Source: Thioploca sp. (lineage in GTDB: Bacteria; Pseudomonadota; Gammaproteobacteria; Beggiatoales; Beggiatoaceae). From it: DNA of 48,466 nucleotides. The notes under the pieces were generated by a model. The model did no database searches. It was not told the DNA's origin and was given only the letters and a program-made list of their open reading frames with translations. Shown here one piece after another: positions 8,960 through 43,595 of the stretch. The DNA lies in assembly GCA_030627125.1 (NCBI GenBank), contig DAOUSR010000005.1:1-48466 (forward strand), in the 5' to 3' direction. Each line of letters starts with the position of its first letter. Position 1 is the stretch's first letter. A program made the translations under genes and the position numbers.

Positions 8960-10119
8960 TGTATAAAGCAATTACTTTTGTTCTATTGCCTATTATAGTA
9001 ATGGTCGCTTCGTTATCCATATTTACCGTTCAGGAAACTGAAGTTGCTTTGATGCTACGATTTAAGAAGATCGTTGGGGATGATTTTCCACCTGGTTTAC
9101 ATTTTAAGAGTCCAATCCATAATGTCCTAACTTTCGATAAACGGATTCAAACTCTTGATGCTCCGCCTGAACAATTTTTAACTGTGGAAAAGAAAAACTT
9201 AATTGTGGACTCTTTTATAAAATGGCGTATCGTTGATATTGTTACTTATTATAAAGCAGTTAGCGGGAACCAACAACGAGCTAGAGATCGGTTAGGTGAA
9301 ATTATTGCCGATGGATTACGCAGTGAGTTTGGTAAACGCACAATTAAGGAAGTAGTGTCTGGTGATAGAATTGAAATTATGGGCATTATTACTGCAGGAG
9401 CTAATTTGACTGTTCCAAAATTATTGGGCATTGAAATTGTTGATGTACGGATTAAACGGATAGATCTACCTTCAGAAGTTAGTAATTCTGTATATCGACG
9501 TATGGAAGCGGAACGAGAACGAGTGGCAAAGAAATGGCGTTCTCAAGGTGAAGCGGATGCAGTACGAATTCGAGCCAATGCGGATAGGATACGAATCGAA
9601 GTTTTTTCTAAAGCAGAACGAGATTCGGAACAAATTCGAGGTGAAGGTGAAGCTTTTTCGGCTGATACTTATGCTAAAGCATATAATCAGAATCAGGAAT
9701 TTTATACTTTATATCGTAGCTTGAATGCTTATAAAACAGCTTTTAGTAGTCGTAATGATATGTTAATAATTACTCCTGACTCTGATTTCTTTAATTATTT
9801 TAAAGATTTGAATGGTAAAAAATCGTTTTATCCTATCTCAATAACTGATAAAAAACCAGCTGTAGTACCAGTTGTAACACCAGTGCCAGTTGTGGCACCA
9901 GTACCAGTTGTGGCACCAGTGCCAGTTGTGGCACCAGTGCCAGTTGTGGCACCAGTACCAGTTGTAGCACCAGTGCCAGTTGTAGCACCAGTGCCAGTTG
10001 TGACACCAGTGCCAGTTGTAACACCAGTGCCAGTTGTAGCACCAGTGCCAGTTGTGGCACCAGTGCCAGAAATACCAGTTGAAATGATAAATAACGAAAA
10101 TAATTCTGCTTTAGAATAA
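8959..10119 (+). CDS. hflC: FtsH protease modulator HflC with Pro-Val repeat tail
   Basis: 386 residues. The N-terminal membrane helix (about 6-23) is followed by a band-7 domain (VQETEVALMLRFKKIVGDDFPPGLH), the ER-rich segment YRRMEAERERVAKKWRSQGEA and the usual C-terminal core (YRSLNAYKTAFSSRNDMLIITPDSDFFNYFKD). Ordinary HflC ends near there at roughly 290-330 residues. Here a tail of about 80 residues follows, mostly eleven PVV(A/T)PV hexapeptides (9868-10065), then an acidic end. The tail should form a rigid polyproline-like arm on the periplasmic side. Its role is unknown; it may be lineage-specific. Confidence 0.95.
   Translation: MYKAITFVLLPIIVMVASLSIFTVQETEVALMLRFKKIVGDDFPPGLHFKSPIHNVLTFDKRIQTLDAPPEQFLTVEKKNLIVDSFIKWRIVDIVTYYKAVSGNQQRARDRLGEIIADGLRSEFGKRTIKEVVSGDRIEIMGIITAGANLTVPKLLGIEIVDVRIKRIDLPSEVSNSVYRRMEAERERVAKKWRSQGEADAVRIRANADRIRIEVFSKAERDSEQIRGEGEAFSADTYAKAYNQNQEFYTLYRSLNAYKTAFSSRNDMLIITPDSDFFNYFKDLNGKKSFYPISITDKKPAVVPVVTPVPVVAPVPVVAPVPVVAPVPVVAPVPVVAPVPVVAPVPVVTPVPVVTPVPVVAPVPVVAPVPEIPVEMINNENNSALE
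9868..10065 (+). repeat. Eleven in-frame 18-bp repeats in hflC (PVVAPV)
   Basis: Eleven uninterrupted units of CCAGTTGTGGCACCAGTG or single-base variants encode PVVAPV (eight) or PVVTPV (three). Units are near identical at DNA level, so the copy number probably varies by slippage in 6-residue steps that keep the frame. The apparent opposite-strand ORF here is only a shadow of the repeat. Confidence 0.95.
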
Positions 10120-10337: not shown

Positions 10338-10393
10338 AAAGGATTGCCCCTACATATTTATTTGTGGGGTAATCTGTGGTTCCCCTAATCCCC
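10338..10393. repeat. Family B palindromic repeat (CAACCAC...GTAGGGG type), overlapping a gene end
   Basis: On the minus strand this reads GGGGATTAGGGGAACCACAG ... ATGTAGGGGCAATCCTTT and matches the element at 48362-48425 over most of its length. It supplies the last 15 codons and the stop of the minus-strand gene ending at 10350. Confidence 0.75.
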
Positions 10394-10982
10394 GATTTTT
10401 ACCATTAATTTGTTGCTGCATAATTTCCCATGCAAATAAAAACAAGCATATATCGGCCCATAATTTAGTAAGGTCTTCCAATGACAAACGCATCACCATA
10501 TCTTTCGGAAACTTAGCATCAATTACCACCATTACCGCAAATAAAACCGCAGCAGTATATAAAAATTGCCGAGCCAATTGAGTTTTCTGTTGCAAATTAC
10601 CTAACCAAGCTAATAATCCTACCTCTATTACACCTAAACCCAATAACAAATAGGCATCATTGCGGCCTAAGAATCTTCCTACGCTCTCATGGATTAAGAA
10701 TCGTTCATCGCAGCCTAAATAGATAAACATGATGATTTGAGAGATAAAAAACCAGTATTCTGGACTTTTCTTATCAACGCAAGATAAACTTATCATAAAT
10801 AACAATGCAGTAGCCCACAATAAAAATACACTCAGTGTAGTATTGATAGCATAACCAGCAATTTCATGTTGGCCTATATCGGTTAAAAATTGCCGGATAA
10901 AAAGTTGGGAAGTTTGCCACTCAGTTACCAATAAAATAATGCTATATACTGCTATTAATAGAAAAATTCGATAATATTTCAT
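10350..10982 (-). CDS. Polytopic membrane protein with D-E-x3-IHE-x2-G motif (family member 1)
   Basis: 210 residues with about five to six hydrophobic helices. I do not recognise a named family. It shares landmarks with the genes at 10979-11692 and 42801-43595: a CDERFLIHESVGRFLG segment in or near a membrane helix, and a late LEDLTKLWADICLFLFAWEIM helix matching the EE.FEILG helix of the others. It is the shortest of the three. Its ATG overlaps the upstream gene's stop (ATGA), so the two are translationally coupled and may form a hetero-oligomer. The last 15 residues (NRGLGEPQITPQINM) come from a palindromic repeat and are probably not ancestral. Conserved Asp, Glu and His near membranes could be catalytic or metal-binding, but this is speculative. 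Confidence 0.7.
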   Translation of the reverse strand: MKYYRIFLLIAVYSIILLVTEWQTSQLFIRQFLTDIGQHEIAGYAINTTLSVFLLWATALLFMISLSCVDKKSPEYWFFISQIIMFIYLGCDERFLIHESVGRFLGRNDAYLLLGLGVIEVGLLAWLGNLQQKTQLARQFLYTAAVLFAVMVVIDAKFPKDMVMRLSLEDLTKLWADICLFLFAWEIMQQQINGKNRGLGEPQITPQINM

Positions 10983-11692
10983 AATTTATATTGCCTAGCT
11001 ATCAATACTGCACATGTAAATAAGCTATACATACCTAAAATTTCAAACGTTTCTTCCCAACAATTTAATGTTCCAACACTTTGCTGAATAGAATATAGTA
11101 GCCATTCCACTATTTCAAACAAAAATACTCCTGGTAAACAGAATACAGCTAACCATAAAGCCCAAGTTATAATGTGTCTTTGCTTAGAAATTGGTATATT
11201 TGCAATTACTTTACGTAAGGCAATAACTGTAGCGACTAAACCAGCTAATGCTAATGGTGCAAACAACAAAACCCAAATAAAACCTTTGTTATCTATCGGT
11301 AAGAAAGTCAGTAAATTTTCTACTATCCCTCTCAACCATTTACCAACGGTCTCGTGAATACTTGCTGTTTCATCAGCGGATAATAACACAGCTCCTATTG
11401 CGGTTAGTTTAAATATAAAACGTTGCCAATTAGCAATTTTAAAATTTGAACTCCAACCTAACAAAACAAAAGCTAGTCCAGTCATTAAATATAATACGCT
11501 GGAAAACCAAGTGGCTAAGGTATTTTCTTTGCGTAAATCTAATAGTACTAATACTCTGTGAATATTAATGTCGAATATTTTTTGAAATTCATAGGCGTAA
11601 GTAAGATAAGATAGAAAAGTAGTTATTATAAAAAATAAACCTATCCAAAATATTGGAATTACTAGTTTTTCTAAAAGATAATGAATTTTAAT
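10979..11692 (-). CDS. Polytopic membrane protein with D-E-x3-IHE-x2-G motif (family member 2), non-ATG start
   Basis: About 237 residues and six predicted helices. The frame is open upstream of the first ATG (11485) back to a TAA at 11705-11707. That extra part (KIHYLLEKLVIPIFWIGLFF ... IFDINIHRVL...ENTLATWFSSVLYL) aligns with the N-terminus of the gene at 42801 (INIRRIWNI...ENSIPTWFSS), so it is real coding sequence. No ATG, GTG or TTG exists in it. AAAGGA at 11701-11706 points to the ATT at 11690-11692 as the start, with the ATT at 11684-11686 as an alternative. Other shared motifs are DETASIHETVGKWL and WEETFEILGMYSL. Function unknown; it is coupled to the downstream homologue through ATGA. 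Confidence 0.65.
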   Translation of the reverse strand: MKIHYLLEKLVIPIFWIGLFFIITTFLSYLTYAYEFQKIFDINIHRVLVLLDLRKENTLATWFSSVLYLMTGLAFVLLGWSSNFKIANWQRFIFKLTAIGAVLLSADETASIHETVGKWLRGIVENLLTFLPIDNKGFIWVLLFAPLALAGLVATVIALRKVIANIPISKQRHIITWALWLAVFCLPGVFLFEIVEWLLYSIQQSVGTLNCWEETFEILGMYSLFTCAVLIARQYKL

Positions 11693-11840
11693 AGTTGTTT
11701 TCCTTTAGTTACAATAGTTTTTTATCAGTAATTGTTAAAATTTAAATTTAGTCTACATAAAAAGTCTATTTAATTTATATATTTTGCTATTATAAAGTTA
11801 ATAGAACTTACGCATTAACAATAATTTTGACTTTGTAGAA

Positions 11841-11977: not shown

Positions 11978-14900
11978 ATGAGCAACCCAATTACCCAATA
12001 TCTTACCCAAATTCAAATCAATCTGCAAACTGGCGTAGCTAAAGAACATACGCATCGTGCTGCATTGGAGAATTTGTTAGAAACTCTCCATCCTGCTATT
12101 GATGCCGTTAATGAGCCAAAACGGATTGACTGTGGTTCACCCGACCTAGTGATTCTTGATTCCGAAGCGGTACCGTTGGGCTATATCGAAGCTAAGGATA
12201 TTGGCGTGTCGCTAGATAATGCTTTAAAAACTGAGCAGTTAAAACGGTATTTGGAATCTTTGCATAATCTTATTTTAACTGATTATTTGGAGTTTCGTTG
12301 GTTTGTGGAGGGTGAATATAAACCGGAAATGACAGTATGTTTGGCTAAAGTGGATAAAAGGGTAGTAAAACCATTACCGGAAAAATTTGTCAATTTTGAA
12401 CGGTTATTTGGTACTTTTGTTGAAACGCAGGTCATTACGTTACGCAGTCCAGAGGATTTAGCGGCAAGAATGGCTAAAATTGCTGATTTGATTCGTAATT
12501 TGATTTCTGAAGCTTATAAGCAGGAAAAAACGGGAATTTTGCATAATCAGTTGGATAGCTTTCGGAAAGTTTTGCTGGATAGTTTGACGGTTGAGCAGTT
12601 TGCCGATATGTATGCTCAAACAGCATGTTATGGTTTATTTGCAGCGAAATGTAATGCCTCATTGACGGAGAAATTTTCTCGAATTAATGCGAGTCATTAT
12701 GTGCCGAAGACAAATCCGTTTTTACGCAAGTTGTTTAATCAAATCGTTGGTATAGATATAGATGAGCGGTTGGTGTGGGCGGTTGAGCATTTGGTGACAG
12801 TGTTGAATCATACTGATATTGGGGCAATTTTGGCAGATTTTGGTAAACGAACTCGGCAGGAAGACCCGGTGGTGCATTTTTATGAGACGTTTTTGAAGCA
12901 TTATGATCCGAATATGCGGGAGATGCGAGGGGTTTATTATACACCGGAACCGGTGGTTTCTTATATTGTGCGGTCGGTGGATTTGTTGTTAAAACAGCAG
13001 TTTAAATTAAAGGATGGGTTGGCGGATAGTAGTAAGTTGGAGTCGGGTTTGCATAGGGTGCAGATTTTGGATCCGGCGGTGGGGACTGGGACATTTTTGT
13101 ATGCGGTGTTTAAGCAGATTTTTGCTAAGTTTCGGAAGAATAAGGGGATGTGGTCAAGTTATGTGACGGAGCATTTGTTGCCAAGGGTACATGGGTTTGA
13201 GTTGTTGATGGCTCCTTATACGGTGGCTCATATGAAGTTGGGTTTGCAGTTGCAGGAGATGGGTTATGAGTTTGATTCGGATGAAAGATTGCGGATTTTT
13301 TTGACGAATAGTTTGGAGGATAGTTTTGAGAGGGGTGGTTCGCCGGATTTGCCATTTGCAGAGTGGTTGGTGAATGAGGGGAAAGCAGCTAGTGAAGTTA
13401 AACAGGATTCGCCGGTGATGGTGATTGTGGGGAATCCGCCTTATTCTGGGCATTCTGCTAATGTTGGGGAATGGATTGTTGGTTTGTTGAAAGGAGTTGA
13501 TGAGCGTAATAATGAAGCTAAAACAGCTAGTTATTTTCAAATTGATGGAAAGCCGTTGAAAGAAAGAAACTCTAAATGGTTAAATGATGATTATGTTAAG
13601 TTTATTCGGTTTGCTCAGTGGCGAATTGAACAAACTGGTTATGGAGTTTTGGCTTTTGTAACTAATCATGGTTATTTGAATAATCCGACTTTTCGTGGAA
13701 TGCGGCAAGCGTTAATGCAGGATTTTGATGAGATTTATTTACTTGATTTGCATGGTAATTCTAAGAAAAAAGAAAGATGTCCAGATGGTGATGTTGATAA
13801 AAATGTGTTTGATATTCAACAGGGTGTAGCTATTGGTATTTTCGTAAAACATAAGTCTAAACAGTCAGTTAAAGTATTTCATGCTGATTTATGGGGCAAA
13901 CGTGATGGTAAATATGCTTGGTTAGAAGAAAAAGATATTAAATCAACTGATTGGCAAGAAATAAAACCACGATCACCATTTTATTTGTTTATTCCACAAG
14001 ATATTACCCTGTTAAGTGAATATGAACAATATTGGAAAATTAATGATGTGATGATAGTTAATTCCGTAGGTATCGTTACTGCTAGAGATAATTTAACAAT
14101 CCATGAATCGCCACAAGCTGTTATGGAGACGGTTCAAGATTTTGTTAATTTAGAAATTGAAGAAGCAAGAGAAAAGTATCAATTGGGTAAAGATACGAGA
14201 GATTGGAAAGTGTATTTAGCCCAAGAAGATATTAGAAATAATAAAACTGATGATTCTCATATTACTCCTATTTTATATCGACCTTTTGATAAAAGATATA
14301 CTTATTACACTGGAAAAACGAAGGGATTTATTTGTATGCCAAGGCGTGATGTGATGCAACACATGTTGGCTGGAGAAAACTTGGGATTAATTGTTGGTCG
14401 TTCAGGACAAGTTGTTGGTTCTGACGAATGGGATATTTTATTTTGTTTAAACGTAATTTCAGAATTTAATCTTTATCGTCGTGGCGGAAATAATTTATTC
14501 CCTCTATATCTCTATCCAACCGAAAAAGATGAATTTTTAAATGGAAACGGCAATGCTAAACCAAAGAGAAAACCCAACTTTGCCCCAAATTTCATCAAAG
14601 ACTTAGAAACTCGCCTAAAACTAAAATTCATAGACGACGGCATAGGCAACTTAACAACCACCATCGGCCCCGAAGACATCTTCCACTACATCTACGCCAT
14701 ATTCCACAGCCCAACTTACCGTCAACGCTATGCCGAATTTCTAAAAATAGACTTCCCCCGCTTACCCTTAACCAGCGACAAAAAACTATTCAGAAAACTC
14801 GCCAAACTAGGCCAACAACTAATCAAAATCCACCTAATGGAAGCCGATATAGAAACCGAAAGCAGCTATCCCATCGAAGGCGATAATTTAGTTGAAAAAA

Positions 14901-15145
14901 TCACCTACCAAGATGAAAAAGTTTACATCAACAAAACCCAATACTTTGATAACATAACTGGAACTGTTTGGAATTTCCACATCGGCGGCTACCAAGTTTG
15001 CCAAAAATGGCTCAAAGACCGCAAAGGCCGAGAACTAAATTACGACGACTGCAATCACTATCTTTATATTCTCGCTGCTTTAGAACAAACTATTGCATTA
15101 ATGGAGAAAATTGATGAAACTATCCCAAAATTTCCCTTGTCATGA
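11978..15145 (+). CDS. Eco57I-like (type IIG/ISP-like) restriction-modification protein
   Basis: 1055 residues. The N-terminal PD-(D/E)XK-like nuclease has SPDLVIL (Asp56) and YIEAKD (Glu71, Lys73). A helical linker contains MREMRGVYYTPEPVVSYIV. The N6-adenine methylase core has motif I ILDPAVGTGTF (about 363-373) and motif IV VGNPPYSG (about 484-491). The rest should hold the target recognition region. No DEAD-box helicase segment is present, so it is closer to single-chain type IIG than to 1500-residue type ISP enzymes. It should methylate adenine and cut DNA from the same polypeptide. No helicase, specificity or other defence gene is adjacent. Wobble bases change sharply along the gene: G/T-rich at about 12700-13450, A/T-rich in the middle, C/A-rich at about 14520-15060, which suggests a mosaic or imported gene. 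Confidence 0.88.
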   Translation: MSNPITQYLTQIQINLQTGVAKEHTHRAALENLLETLHPAIDAVNEPKRIDCGSPDLVILDSEAVPLGYIEAKDIGVSLDNALKTEQLKRYLESLHNLILTDYLEFRWFVEGEYKPEMTVCLAKVDKRVVKPLPEKFVNFERLFGTFVETQVITLRSPEDLAARMAKIADLIRNLISEAYKQEKTGILHNQLDSFRKVLLDSLTVEQFADMYAQTACYGLFAAKCNASLTEKFSRINASHYVPKTNPFLRKLFNQIVGIDIDERLVWAVEHLVTVLNHTDIGAILADFGKRTRQEDPVVHFYETFLKHYDPNMREMRGVYYTPEPVVSYIVRSVDLLLKQQFKLKDGLADSSKLESGLHRVQILDPAVGTGTFLYAVFKQIFAKFRKNKGMWSSYVTEHLLPRVHGFELLMAPYTVAHMKLGLQLQEMGYEFDSDERLRIFLTNSLEDSFERGGSPDLPFAEWLVNEGKAASEVKQDSPVMVIVGNPPYSGHSANVGEWIVGLLKGVDERNNEAKTASYFQIDGKPLKERNSKWLNDDYVKFIRFAQWRIEQTGYGVLAFVTNHGYLNNPTFRGMRQALMQDFDEIYLLDLHGNSKKKERCPDGDVDKNVFDIQQGVAIGIFVKHKSKQSVKVFHADLWGKRDGKYAWLEEKDIKSTDWQEIKPRSPFYLFIPQDITLLSEYEQYWKINDVMIVNSVGIVTARDNLTIHESPQAVMETVQDFVNLEIEEAREKYQLGKDTRDWKVYLAQEDIRNNKTDDSHITPILYRPFDKRYTYYTGKTKGFICMPRRDVMQHMLAGENLGLIVGRSGQVVGSDEWDILFCLNVISEFNLYRRGGNNLFPLYLYPTEKDEFLNGNGNAKPKRKPNFAPNFIKDLETRLKLKFIDDGIGNLTTTIGPEDIFHYIYAIFHSPTYRQRYAEFLKIDFPRLPLTSDKKLFRKLAKLGQQLIKIHLMEADIETESSYPIEGDNLVEKITYQDEKVYINKTQYFDNITGTVWNFHIGGYQVCQKWLKDRKGRELNYDDCNHYLYILAALEQTIALMEKIDETIPKFPLS

Positions 15146-21592: not shown

Positions 21593-24500
21593 ATGAAAGA
21601 CTTACTAAATTTGTTGAATACCCAAGGCCAAATAGATGATTTTGATAAAATTTGCATTGGTCTTGCTTCGCCAGAAAAAATCCGTTCTTGGTCTTATGGA
21701 GAGGTAAAAAAACCAGAAACTATTAACTATCGTACTTTCCGGCCTGAACGTGATGGTTTATTCTGTGCCAAAATATTTGGTCCTACTAGAGATTATGAAT
21801 GCTTATGCGGTAAATATAAACGTCTAAAACACCGTGGGGTAGTGTGTGAAAAATGTGGAGTTGAAGTAACCCAAGCCAAAGTACGTAGAGAACGTATGGG
21901 ACATATTGACCTCGCTAGTCCGGTTGCTCATATTTGGTATCTAAAATCCTTGCCATCGCGCATGGGTTTAATGTTAGATATGACATTACGTGATATTGAA
22001 CGAATTTTGTATTTCGAAGCTTATGTGGTGATTGAAGGAGGTTTGACTCCGTTAACCAAAGGAGATTTATTAAGTGAAGAAGCTTATATAGAAACTTTGG
22101 AAGAACATGGCGATGATTTTGAAGTACAAATGGGTGCTGAAGCTATTCTCAAATTATTACAACAGATAAACTTGGCTGGTGAAGTTAATATTTTACGAGA
22201 AGAAATAGCCTCCACTACTTCAGATACTAAAATCAAAAAATTATCCAAACGCTTAAAATTGATAGAAGCATTCCTACATTCTGGCAATAAACCGGAATGG
22301 ATGATTTTAAAAATTTTACCAGTACTGCCACCAGAATTACGTCCTTTAGTGCCGCTTGATGGTGGACGTTTTGCTACTTCTGACTTGAACGACTTATATC
22401 GCCGAGTGATTAATCGTAATAATCGGTTAAAACGGTTGTTGGAATTAAATGCTCCAGAAATTATTGTACGTAACGAAAAAAGAATGTTGCAAGAATCAGT
22501 AGATGCGTTGTTAGATAATGGACGACGTGGACGGGCAATTACTGGTTCTAATAAACTACCTTTAAAATCTTTGGCGGATATGATTAAAGGTAAGCAGGGA
22601 CGGTTTCGGCAAAATTTGTTGGGTAAACGGGTCGATTACTCAGGCCGTTCGGTTATCGTAGTGGGGCCAACTTTACGTCTGCATCAATGTGGTTTGCCGA
22701 AAAAGATGGCGTTGGAACTGTTTAAACCATTTGTGTTTGGGAAATTAGAACTCAAAGGTTGGGTAACTACCATCAAAGCCGCTAAAAAGATGGTTGAACG
22801 AGAAGATACGTTAATTTGGGATATGCTGGAAGAAGTTATTCGTGAGCATCCAGTATTACTGAATCGGGCTCCTACTTTACATCGTTTAGGCATTCAAGCA
22901 TTTGAGCCAACTTTGATTGAAGGAAAAGCGATTCAATTGCATCCTCTGGTATGTACAGCTTTTAATGCTGACTTTGATGGCGATCAAATGGCTGTGCATG
23001 TACCGTTAGCTATTGAAGCTCAATTGGAAGCTCGTACCTTGATGATGGCTTCCACTAATGTGCTATCACCAGCTAATGGTGAACCAATTATTGTACCTTC
23101 TCAAGATGTGGTTTTAGGTTTGTATTCCATGACTCGGGAACGAATTGGAGCTCGTGGTGAAGGTATGGTTTTTGCTGATTTGAACGAGTTGAATCGAGCT
23201 TATCAAAATCGAGTAGTAGATTTAAATGCTAAAATTACGGTGCGGTTGAAAGAAACTATTATAGAAAAACCAGCTTCAACGCTAAAAAATCTTGTTAGTA
23301 CAGCCACTACTACTGAAACTACTACTCTTAGAGTAAATACTACTGTTGGTAGAGCTTTAGTTTATGAAATTGTACCTCAAGGTTTACCATTTGATTTAGT
23401 CAATCGGAATTTAACCAAAAAAGCGATTTCCAAATTAATTAACGTTTGTTATCGACGGCTGGATCTGAAAAAGACTGTAATTTTTGCCGATATGCTGATG
23501 AAGATGGGTTTTTCTTATGCTACGAAAGCCGGAATTTCCATCGGGATCGAAGATATGGTAGTTCCTGATAATAAACCTGAAATTATTGCAGCTGCTAAAA
23601 ATGAAGTTAAAGAAATAGAAGAGCAATATTCATCAGGTCTTATTACCCACGGGGAACGTTATAATAAAGTTATTGACATCTGGTCGCATACCAATGACAA
23701 ATTAACTAGTGCGATGATGAAACAGTTAGGGCATGATACGGTATTAAATGCTGACAATGAGGAAGTTTCGCAAGAATCTTTCAACTCAATTTACATGATG
23801 GCCGATTCTGGAGCTCGTGGCTCGCAAGCCCAAATTCGACAATTATCAGCCATGCGTGGTTTAATGGCAAAACCAGATGGTTCAATTATTGAAACTCCGA
23901 TTACCGCTAATTTTCGGGAAGGTTTAGACGTATTACAATATTTTATTTCTACTCATGGAGCTCGGAAAGGACTTGCTGATACAGCTTTGAAAACTGCTAA
24001 CTCTGGTTATTTAACTAGGCGTTTAGTTGATGTCGCCCAAGACATGGTAATTTTAGAAAATGATTGCCAGACTCATCGTGGTTTAGAAATGACTCCTCTG
24101 ATTGAAGGTGGAGATGTGGTAGAACCTTTATGTGATAGAGTTTTAGGTCGGGTAGTAGCTGAAAATGTATTCAAGCGTGGAATAGCAGCCCCAATAGTAA
24201 AAGCAGGAATTTTATTAGATGAAGAATGGGTAGAACTGTTAGAGAAAGAAGGGGTAGACCGAATTATAGTTCGTTCTGCGATAACTTGTGAATCTCGCTA
24301 TGGAATCTGTGCTACATGTTATGGACGTGATTTAGGACGTGGCCAATTAGTAAATATTGGTGAAGCCGTTGGGGTAGTTGCGGCTCAATCAATTGGTGAA
24401 CCTGGTACTCAGTTAACCATGCGGACTTTCCATATTGGTGGTGCTGCTTCTCGGGCGGCTGCGGTCAGTCAAATTGAAGTTAAGTCGAAAGGAACTACTA

Positions 24501-25831
24501 AATTTGATAATCTTAAATTGCTGCCTCAGCAGGCTGATGATGGAACTATTCGTTATATTGCGGTATCTCGTTCGGGTGAAGTTAGTATTTTGGATGAATT
24601 TGGTTTGGAAAGAGAGCGTTACAAAGTTCCTTATGGAGCGGTATTAAACGTTCAAGAAGGGGAAAAGATTGGAGTTGGGCAGATGGTAGCTAGTTGGGAT
24701 CCGCATACCTTCCCGATCATTACGGAAGTAGCTGGTCAAACTCAATTTGTGGATGTAATTGAGGGGATTACTGTCAGCCGTGAAGTGGATGAAATGACAG
24801 GTTTAAGTAGTATTGTAGTCATGGATCCCAAATTGCGACCTTCTCACGCCAAAGATATGCGACCAACGGTTAAATTAGTTGATGAGCAAGGTGAGACAGT
24901 AAATATTGTAGGTACCGATATGCCTGCAACTTATACACTTCCACCTCGAGCGGTGATTAATGTCGAAGATGGTGCTTGGGTCAAGGTAGGGGATATTATT
25001 GCTCGTTTACAACAAGAATCTACTAAAACTAGGGATATTACTGGTGGTTTACCACGAGTTGCAGATTTGTTTGAAGCTCGGATTCCTAAAGAGCCATCTA
25101 TATTAGCCGAGCAGACTGGAATTATAACCTATGGTAAAGATACTAGAACTAAACAGAAAATATTAATTACTTCTCAAGAAGGTAACGTTATAGAGATACC
25201 AATTTCTAAATGGCGACATATTAACGTATATGAGGGGCAACATGTTGAAAAAGGCGAAGAAATTGTTGATGGGCCGCCTAATCCACATGATATATTGCGT
25301 TTGTTAGGAGTCAGTACTTTAGCGGATTATATTGTCAATGAAGTACAAGAAGTTTACCGTTTGCAAGGTGTTAAGATAAATGACAAACATATCGAAGTGA
25401 TTGTGCGACAAATGTTACGAAAAGTTGTGATATTGGATCATGGTGAAACCCGTTTATTACCCGGTGAATTGGTGGAACGAGCTAAATTGATAGAAGAAAA
25501 TGAAGAAGCTAATAGTTCTAATTTGCGGCCAGCAACTTGGGAACCGCAATTATTAGGTATTACTAAAGCATCGCTTGCCACTGAATCATTTATCTCAGCA
25601 GCTTCTTTCCAAGAAACAACTCGGGTATTAACTGATGCTTCGGTAAATGGTCGTTGTGATGAATTACGTGGCCTGAAAGAAAATGTGATCGTTGGGCGTT
25701 TGATTCCAGCTGGTACCGGTTTAATTCATCATACTGAACGTCGTCGTTTTCGGTATCCAAACCTGCACCCAAAAGAAATGAAACCAGTGAGTGATTCTAG
25801 TCTAGGAAATAATGGGATGAATAACTTTTAA
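21593..25831 (+). CDS. rpoC: RNA polymerase beta' subunit
   Basis: 1412 residues, close to the gammaproteobacterial norm. The N-terminal zinc ribbon ([20 protein letters not shown]), the catalytic NADFDGDQM loop (about residue 457), the second zinc site ([11 protein letters not shown]...) and the trigger-loop region ([28 protein letters not shown]) are all intact. Together with RpoB it forms the active site of RNA polymerase. Normally it directly follows rpoB and precedes rpsL. Here neither is present: a MazG-like gene and repeats lie upstream, and argE on the other strand lies downstream. The gene must have its own promoter within 21183-21592, but I could not assign one with confidence. No clear Shine-Dalgarno precedes the ATG. 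Confidence 0.99.
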
Positions 25832-42800: not shown

Positions 42801-43595
42801 ATGGAAGAAAAAAACATTAAAACAATAAATATGCAGCAGTGGATAAAGTTTATCTTTATTTCGTGCATATTAGCTCAAATTTTTCTCATAGTTTGTGATT
42901 ATATATTTAACTATGAGGATATTTTTGACGAAATAAATATTCGTAGAATCTGGAATATAGCTCGTGAAAATTCAATACCTACTTGGTTTTCTTCTATTCA
43001 AGCTCAACTTTTAGGAGTAACTGTTTTTCTAATCGCAATTGTGCAAAGTAATAGTATATCAAGATTAAAATTTTGGGGCTGGATTTTAGTTGGAATGTTT
43101 TTCCTGTGGATTGGAATTGATGACTTTGCTGAAATCCATGAAAAACTTGGAGATGCATTTGAAAATATGATCACTGAAAGCGATGAAGAATGGAGTGGAG
43201 TTATTGGATTCCTATTAAAAAATCCTTCTTATGCTTGGCATACCTTTATTGCTCCAATATTTGCTCTATGTGGATTGATAATATTGCTATTTTTATGGAC
43301 AGCTTTTTGGCAATTAAATCTAACTCGGTATCTAATTTTAGGTTTTGGATGTTGGGTAATAGCACAAGGAATTGATTTTACTGAAGGATTAGATGGAATT
43401 GATGATTTTTATATATTAATTCAGAAATGGTTTGATATTGAACGTAAATATGGGGTTTCGCATACTTTTAAAGTAGTCGAAGAAGAATTAGAAATGCTTG
43501 GAACTACATTACTATGGGTTGGATTCTTGCATTATTTTGCGATTATTGCGGATGGAACACAGATTCAATTATTACGCAATACTAAATCAAATTAA
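42801..43595 (+). CDS. Polytopic membrane protein with D-D-x3-IHE-x2-G motif (family member 3)
   Basis: 264 residues from the ATG at 42801; an in-frame TTG at 42768 and an ATG at 42831 are alternatives, and no strong ribosome site picks one. About six helices are predicted. Shared landmarks with the pair at 10350-11692 are INIRRIWNIARENSIPTWFSS near the first helix, GIDDFAEIHEKLGDAFENM, and a final VVEEELEMLGTTLLWVGFLHYF helix. A C-terminal Glu/Asp-rich loop (IAQGIDFTEGLDGIDDF) is extra. I do not recognise a named family. The conserved Asp, Ile-His-Glu and Glu-Glu positions near membranes suggest a shared ion- or metal-linked function, which is inference only. Confidence 0.65.
   Translation: MEEKNIKTINMQQWIKFIFISCILAQIFLIVCDYIFNYEDIFDEINIRRIWNIARENSIPTWFSSIQAQLLGVTVFLIAIVQSNSISRLKFWGWILVGMFFLWIGIDDFAEIHEKLGDAFENMITESDEEWSGVIGFLLKNPSYAWHTFIAPIFALCGLIILLFLWTAFWQLNLTRYLILGFGCWVIAQGIDFTEGLDGIDDFYILIQKWFDIERKYGVSHTFKVVEEELEMLGTTLLWVGFLHYFAIIADGTQIQLLRNTKSN

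Follow-up and report, generated by a model that had tools for sequence, protein, structure and literature searches.

A paralogous pair of predicted six-helix membrane proteins in Beggiatoaceae, one apparently translated from a conserved AUU codon

Two adjacent genes on the reverse strand of the window (the whole 48,466-nucleotide stretch of Thioploca sp. DNA analyzed here) encode diverged, related membrane proteins, A and B, which constitute a real and conserved feature that is absent from every library searched (Pfam, NCBIfam, PADLOC, and the PDB). The fuller proposal, that A and B are the two subunits of an inner-membrane complex in which a periplasmic site of carboxylates and His probably binds metal, with the dosage of the complex set by an AUU start codon and A translationally coupled to B, has in our estimate somewhat less than an even chance of being correct as a whole. 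The most concrete new point of the analysis is the start codon itself: translation of B appears, from its leader and those of its orthologues, to begin at a rare AUU behind a Shine-Dalgarno sequence.

Organization of the Gene Pair and Apparent Start Codon of B

The features of the pair, together with those of a relative of B encoded farther along the window (C), are collected in Table 1. The initial annotation had placed the pair at 10350-11692; these coordinates are correct, and their upper end is an ATT codon for which the orthologues give support as the true start of B, in a reading frame that is open from 11704 to 10979 on the reverse strand. The ATGA overlap by which it had joined the two adjacent genes is also borne out, and in the other linked orthologues the A/B junction is ATGA or GTGA.

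Table 1. Coordinates of genes and sequence features of the A/B pair and of gene C in the window
Feature	Coordinates	Strand	Description
Gene B	10979-11692	-	237 aa, six TM; W-S-S / D-E-x3-IHE / EExxE family; ATT start
ATT start codon of B	11690-11692	-	ATT in 15 of 22 orthologues; ATG in 4; ATC, GTG, and TTG in 1 each
Shine-Dalgarno AAGGA	11701-11705	-	8 nt before ATT of B
B motif	11342-11374	-	D107-E-T-A-S-I-H113-E114-T-V-G117; predicted periplasmic end of TM3
B late acidic helix	11033-11056	-	E213-E214-x2-E217-x2-G220; start of TM6
Gene A	10350-10982	-	210 aa; diverged B paralogue; D-E-x3-IHE and E-(E/D)-x2-K
ATGA overlap	10979-10982	-	TGA of B (10981-10979) and ATG of A (10982-10980)
A motif	10677-10709	-	D92-E-R-F-L-I-H98-E99-S-V-G102
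A late helix	10458-10478	-	E169-(E/D)-x2-K173-x-W175; invariant Lys at the place of B E217
Gene C	42801-43595	+	264 aa; stand-alone B relative; DDFAEIHEKLG, EExxE

There is no in-frame ATG, GTG, or TTG codon in B before residue 70, and an ordinary ORF finder that accepts these three codons shortens the gene to 11485-10979, with loss of the first 69 residues. The region lost encodes TM1 and the conserved residues E56, W62, S64, and S65, and it aligns in all orthologues. In the aligned leaders (n = 22), the ATG of the four B orthologues that have one stands at the same position as the ATT of the others. A Shine-Dalgarno sequence of 4-6 nt is found in 18 of 18 leaders whose start is not ATG and in none of the four ATG leaders; the exact probability of this split, computed by hand, is 1 in 7315 if the rows are assumed to be independent, which they are not.

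Several further features of this part of the window were recorded. The stop codon of A lies in an inverted repeat (10340-10380) between A and a convergent DUF2065 gene, possibly a two-way terminator, the fold of which is not clearly better than those of shuffled sequences (z -1.3). The divergent neighbor of B (11978-15145, forward strand) encodes a type IIG restriction-methylation enzyme (PADLOC 1035 bits). No TAACTGA repeat, a kind known from Beggiatoaceae, lies 80 nt or less from the B start, and the window holds only slightly more of them than chance would give. The end of hflC (9864-10069, forward strand) contains an 18-bp tandem repeat in 11.4 copies that encodes a (V/A)PVPVV repeat tail. 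Farther along the window, rpoC (21593-25831, forward strand; 1412 aa) has no rpoB upstream of it, the preceding genes being a 117-aa MazG-like ORF and a 175-aa ORF without an assigned name; in Maribeggiatoa BOGUAY the beta and beta-prime genes are reported to lie apart (PMC4679880).

Relationship of A, B, and C

The shared motif that had been claimed for the pair occurs in C as well. It reads DERFLIHESVG in A, DETASIHETVG in B, and DDFAEIHEKLG in C, with Glu or Asp at the second position; its final Gly is not invariant across the family. Of the late Glu-rich helix that the pair was also said to share, B and C have the form EExxE, whereas A has E(E/D)xxK, with an invariant Lys against the invariant Glu of B. 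The register that sets K173 of A at the place of E217 of B was aligned by eye from the equivalent helices, hhalign having aligned TM2-TM3 only.

Profile comparison shows the homology of B and C (hhalign probability 97%, E 3e-10). The match between A and B is 57% (E 1e-4) when the profiles hold Beggiatoaceae sequences alone, and that of the A profile with the B/C profile rises to 89.5% (E 2e-6) with wider alignments; an HMM built from B/C proteins also matches several A proteins at E 1e-4 to 2e-6. On the strength of these profile and HMM matches, A is a diverged paralogue of B/C, better placed in a sister family than as a plain member.

Across the B/C family alignment E56, H113, E114, W140, E193, E213, E214, E217, and G220 are invariant, and W62, S64, S65, and D107 are nearly so. 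In alignments with relatives from other families, B and C show the features of the type: E56, a (T/S)WFSS-like start of TM2, (D/E)E-x3-x-HE, W140, E193, and EExxE-x2-G. In 25 A proteins from six phyla, R30, D35, D92, H98, E99, E120, D155, E169, K173, and W175 are invariant. A keeps the Asp, the Glu or Asp, the His, and the Glu of the motif together with the acidic pair, is without WFSS, and has Lys for the last Glu. The close orthologues of A end without the last ∼13 residues of the window's A, which form a C-terminal extension.

Predicted Structure and Topology

AlphaFold models of both B (pLDDT 86.6, pTM 0.86) and A (pLDDT 84.3, pTM 0.82) contain six TM helices, and the order TM1, short helix, TM2, TM3, post-motif helix, TM4, TM5, TM6 is common to the two. 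In the B model, the 12 polar residues most strongly conserved in the family are without exception on one side, in loops or at the ends of helices; they fall at the start of TM2, the end of TM3, the start of TM4, the end of TM5, the start of TM6, or in the loops between them. Loops on the opposite side carry more Lys and Arg than Asp and Glu, whereas on the conserved side Asp and Glu are at least as many as Lys and Arg; by the positive-inside rule, the Lys/Arg-rich opposite side predicts that the conserved side is periplasmic. Mid-membrane exceptions occur in A (E120 and S81/Q82). The clustering was read from the helix ends of the models, not from side-chain distances. The proposal that conserved Asp, Glu, and His stand next to membrane helices thus agrees with the models and the loop charges, which would set these residues on one face of the membrane.

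Family and Fold Searches

Profile searches of Pfam, NCBIfam, and PADLOC with A, B, and C gave nothing above the curated cut-offs, a Pfam search with short B-type relatives from other phyla likewise gave nothing above cut-off, and a sequence search of the PDB gave no match. The initial annotation could tie these membrane proteins to no named family, and with these libraries we reach the same result, their membrane nature included. Neither a plasmid search with A, C, and two relatives nor a search of viral contigs gave a match. One 609-aa relative (L046:613-2439, reverse strand) combines an N-terminal Ig-like glucan-related domain (PF23166, E 1e-6) with a B-type membrane domain and further TM helices.

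Foldseek returned no match for the A and B models at E ≤ 0.001, and a missing match does not prove a new fold. The best whole-length fold matches of both models are microbial rhodopsins and GPCR-like seven-helix bundles, and they are weak (Foldseek E 0.16 or worse); for the rhodopsins the VIA Z is 8 to 9.4 at an rmsd of ∼5, within the range for common helical arrangements. VIA Z values up to 11.3 were obtained only for vinculin-like bundles, within the range of the tool for helical bundles. A microbial rhodopsin is disfavored, since the models of A and B have six helices against seven and the proteins show no sequence match, and so is a retinal-binding Lys, since TM6 of B has no invariant Lys and the Lys of A is near the predicted periplasmic end of its helix. 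The sole Pfam match of A is to cytochrome b561 (PF01292), at 11.7 bits against a cut-off of 30.1 (E 0.22). Cytochrome b561 needs two pairs of heme-ligating His; A and B each have one invariant His, so the paired axial ligands of a b-type heme protein are missing, and this candidate was rejected.

Distribution and Co-inheritance

The sampled family has 25 genera, among them Halobeggiatoa, Thioploca, Parabeggiatoa, Thiomargarita, and Albibeggiatoa; a 2024 paper gives Beggiatoaceae 25 genera in GTDB (PMC11172852), and on this ground we take the family to be Beggiatoaceae. Of its 43 genomes, 22 carry A; these 22 and no others carry B, and a C-type gene alone occurs in one more. In five genomes (G006, G019, G023, G025, and G030) the two genes are unlinked, yet both are present. 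Mapping the A/B label onto a RecA tree of 30 genomes takes six changes (bootstrap 5-7), two of them made unavoidable by strong branch support, and the grouping of all A/B-positive genomes in one clade is rejected (p-AU 3e-6), which indicates that A and B come and go together more than once. Since the patterns of A and B are identical, each change would be a joint gain or loss, with two such events on strong branches, and because there are only two a sign test cannot reach significance. The pairwise distances of A and B correlate after removal of the RecA distance (partial r 0.70, Mantel p 2e-4, 15 genomes). As a separate observation, recA of G006, G030, G015, G011, and G032 (L179-L183) has a long in-frame insertion near residue 203, giving an open frame of 536-697 aa such as an intein would produce, and the window's recA is without it.

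By HMM, B/C-type relatives were detected in other phyla as well as in 33 of the 398 Pseudomonadota sampled. A is less common, being found in Beggiatoaceae and in single genomes of five other phyla: Waterburya (a cyanobacterium), Calditrichaeota, Verrucomicrobia, Planctomycetota, and Flavobacteriaceae. The Calditrichaeota genome has a B-X-A operon with overlapping frames, in Planctomycetota A and a B-type gene are divergent neighbors, and in Waterburya the B-type gene is elsewhere in the genome, away from A. The Flavobacteriaceae and Verrucomicrobia genomes, which are MAGs and may be incomplete, have A without detectable B, and most organisms with B-type proteins have no A. The earlier view that the diverged paralogues are kept as a pair is upheld by the shared 22 of 43 genomes, by the retention of both genes where they are unlinked, and by their adjacency in Calditrichaeota and Planctomycetota; the two MAGs count against it. 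X (L113:7255-7977) is a polytopic, carboxylate-rich membrane protein of EEIAWGQ...HN type, for which Pfam gave no name above cut-off; as an obligate third partner in Beggiatoaceae it was rejected, since it was not found in the A/B-positive genomes searched.

Gene Neighborhoods

A is followed directly, in six Beggiatoaceae loci, by a gene for an NTP_transferase and Bac_transf fusion, and a hexapeptide transferase gene is near three loci. The fusion gene occurs in 11 of 22 A/B-positive genomes against 7 of 21 A/B-negative ones and was rejected as an obligate partner; none was found in the window's own genome, which is incomplete. Plasmids of Deinococcus taeanensis, D. ficus, and Paracoccus marcusii carry relatives whose surroundings include rfb genes, glycosyltransferase genes, and one for a pyruvyl transferase, and a Rhodobacter relative adjoins heavy-metal and magnesium P-type ATPases. 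Many members of one Pseudomonadota family with genomes of 1.3-3.1 Mb (f207; L117-L141) have a B/C-type gene, often beside genes that we named pilM or minor-pilin-like by reading their sequences and beside genes for Ser/Asp/Lys-rich secreted proteins.

Discussion

The interpretation in the initial annotation, which suggested a two-subunit complex and a possible metal or proton site, is supported in part. We propose that A and B are diverged paralogous subunits of one inner-membrane complex, each with six TM helices and cytoplasmic N and C termini. Residues E56, W62, S64, S65, D107, E108, H113, E114, W140, E193, E213, E214, and E217 of B and residues R30, D35, D92, H98, E99, D155, E169, K173, and others of A would come together where the helical bundle opens to the periplasm. 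The likeliest arrangement there is a divalent-metal site made up of carboxylates and a single His, for which B would provide the main site and A, with its Glu-to-Lys change, would act as the modified partner. The amount made would be set by the weak AUU start of B, backed by the Shine-Dalgarno sequence, and A would follow B by translational coupling through ATGA or GTGA. Our first, if weak, guess for the substrate is a step in the handling of a glycan of the periplasmic leaflet or of the surface; a surface-glycan role is suggested by some of the gene neighborhoods and in our judgment quite unlikely. A more far-reaching reading, which we regard as doubtful, is that a widespread six-helix family with a periplasmic metal site gave rise by duplication, among the giant sulfur bacteria and in a few further phyla, to an enzyme or transporter for which both subunits are required, with dosage in Beggiatoaceae governed by a conserved, IF3-responsive AUU.

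The pairing, the paralogy, the invariant residues, and the AUU at the aligned start are read from the sequences, and the fold, the topology, and the placement of residues on one face are predictions; from these we infer that A and B probably form a physical complex. They could also be co-inherited and co-translated and still be separate, perhaps homomeric, proteins of one pathway, a possibility to which we give the lesser weight. The unlinked genes of five Beggiatoaceae genomes and of Waterburya would suit separate proteins, as would the two MAGs with A without B, and the B-type proteins that stand alone in most genomes do not need A; however, the shared ancestry, the same predicted fold, the strict co-occurrence, and the correlated distances are better accommodated by one complex.

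That a metal occupies the periplasmic carboxylate/His site has, we believe, very nearly an even chance. A His next to a Glu, together with an EExxE helix, is the kind of chemistry common in metal sites, which would argue against reading the same residues as a proton or cation path or as a pocket that binds charged head groups of lipids or sugars; the present observations fit either chemistry. Such a non-metal site is nonetheless a possibility of some substance, if not the one we would choose: six to eight carboxylates with a single His make an unusual set of metal ligands, the bundle is compact and has these residues at its helix ends, and A has Lys replacing one Glu. It is unlikely, in our view, that these proteins assist, as accessory membrane factors, in assembling surface polysaccharide or a sheath, with A/B as the Beggiatoaceae version of the family. 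The sugar-transferase fusion and hexapeptide transferase genes near A and the polysaccharide clusters around the Deinococcus and Paracoccus plasmid relatives point that way, but the fusion gene is found in A/B-negative genomes as well and not in the window's incomplete genome, the Rhodobacter relative neighbors metal-transport ATPases, and many relatives are near pilM or minor-pilin-like genes.

A family that spans several phyla, has eight acidic or His residues that are invariant or nearly so, and is without a library entry is a clear annotation gap, and the preferred reading of A and B as one complex makes the pair a defined candidate heteromer for testing. The AUU start of B bears on the gap itself, in that a gene caller restricted to ATG, GTG, and TTG loses TM1 and with it E56, W62, S64, and S65, and the family may have escaped notice partly in this way. 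In E. coli, AUU is the rare start codon of infC and pcnB (PMC4245954). The feature common to these genes and B is the AUU start, which in B stands at the aligned start position behind a Shine-Dalgarno sequence, and IF3 may act on it. B differs in being a membrane protein unrelated to infC or pcnB and in that several of its orthologues use ATG without a Shine-Dalgarno sequence. A conserved AUU start outside infC and pcnB, with the Shine-Dalgarno sequence present exactly where the start is not ATG, therefore offers a natural test of how weak starts persist.
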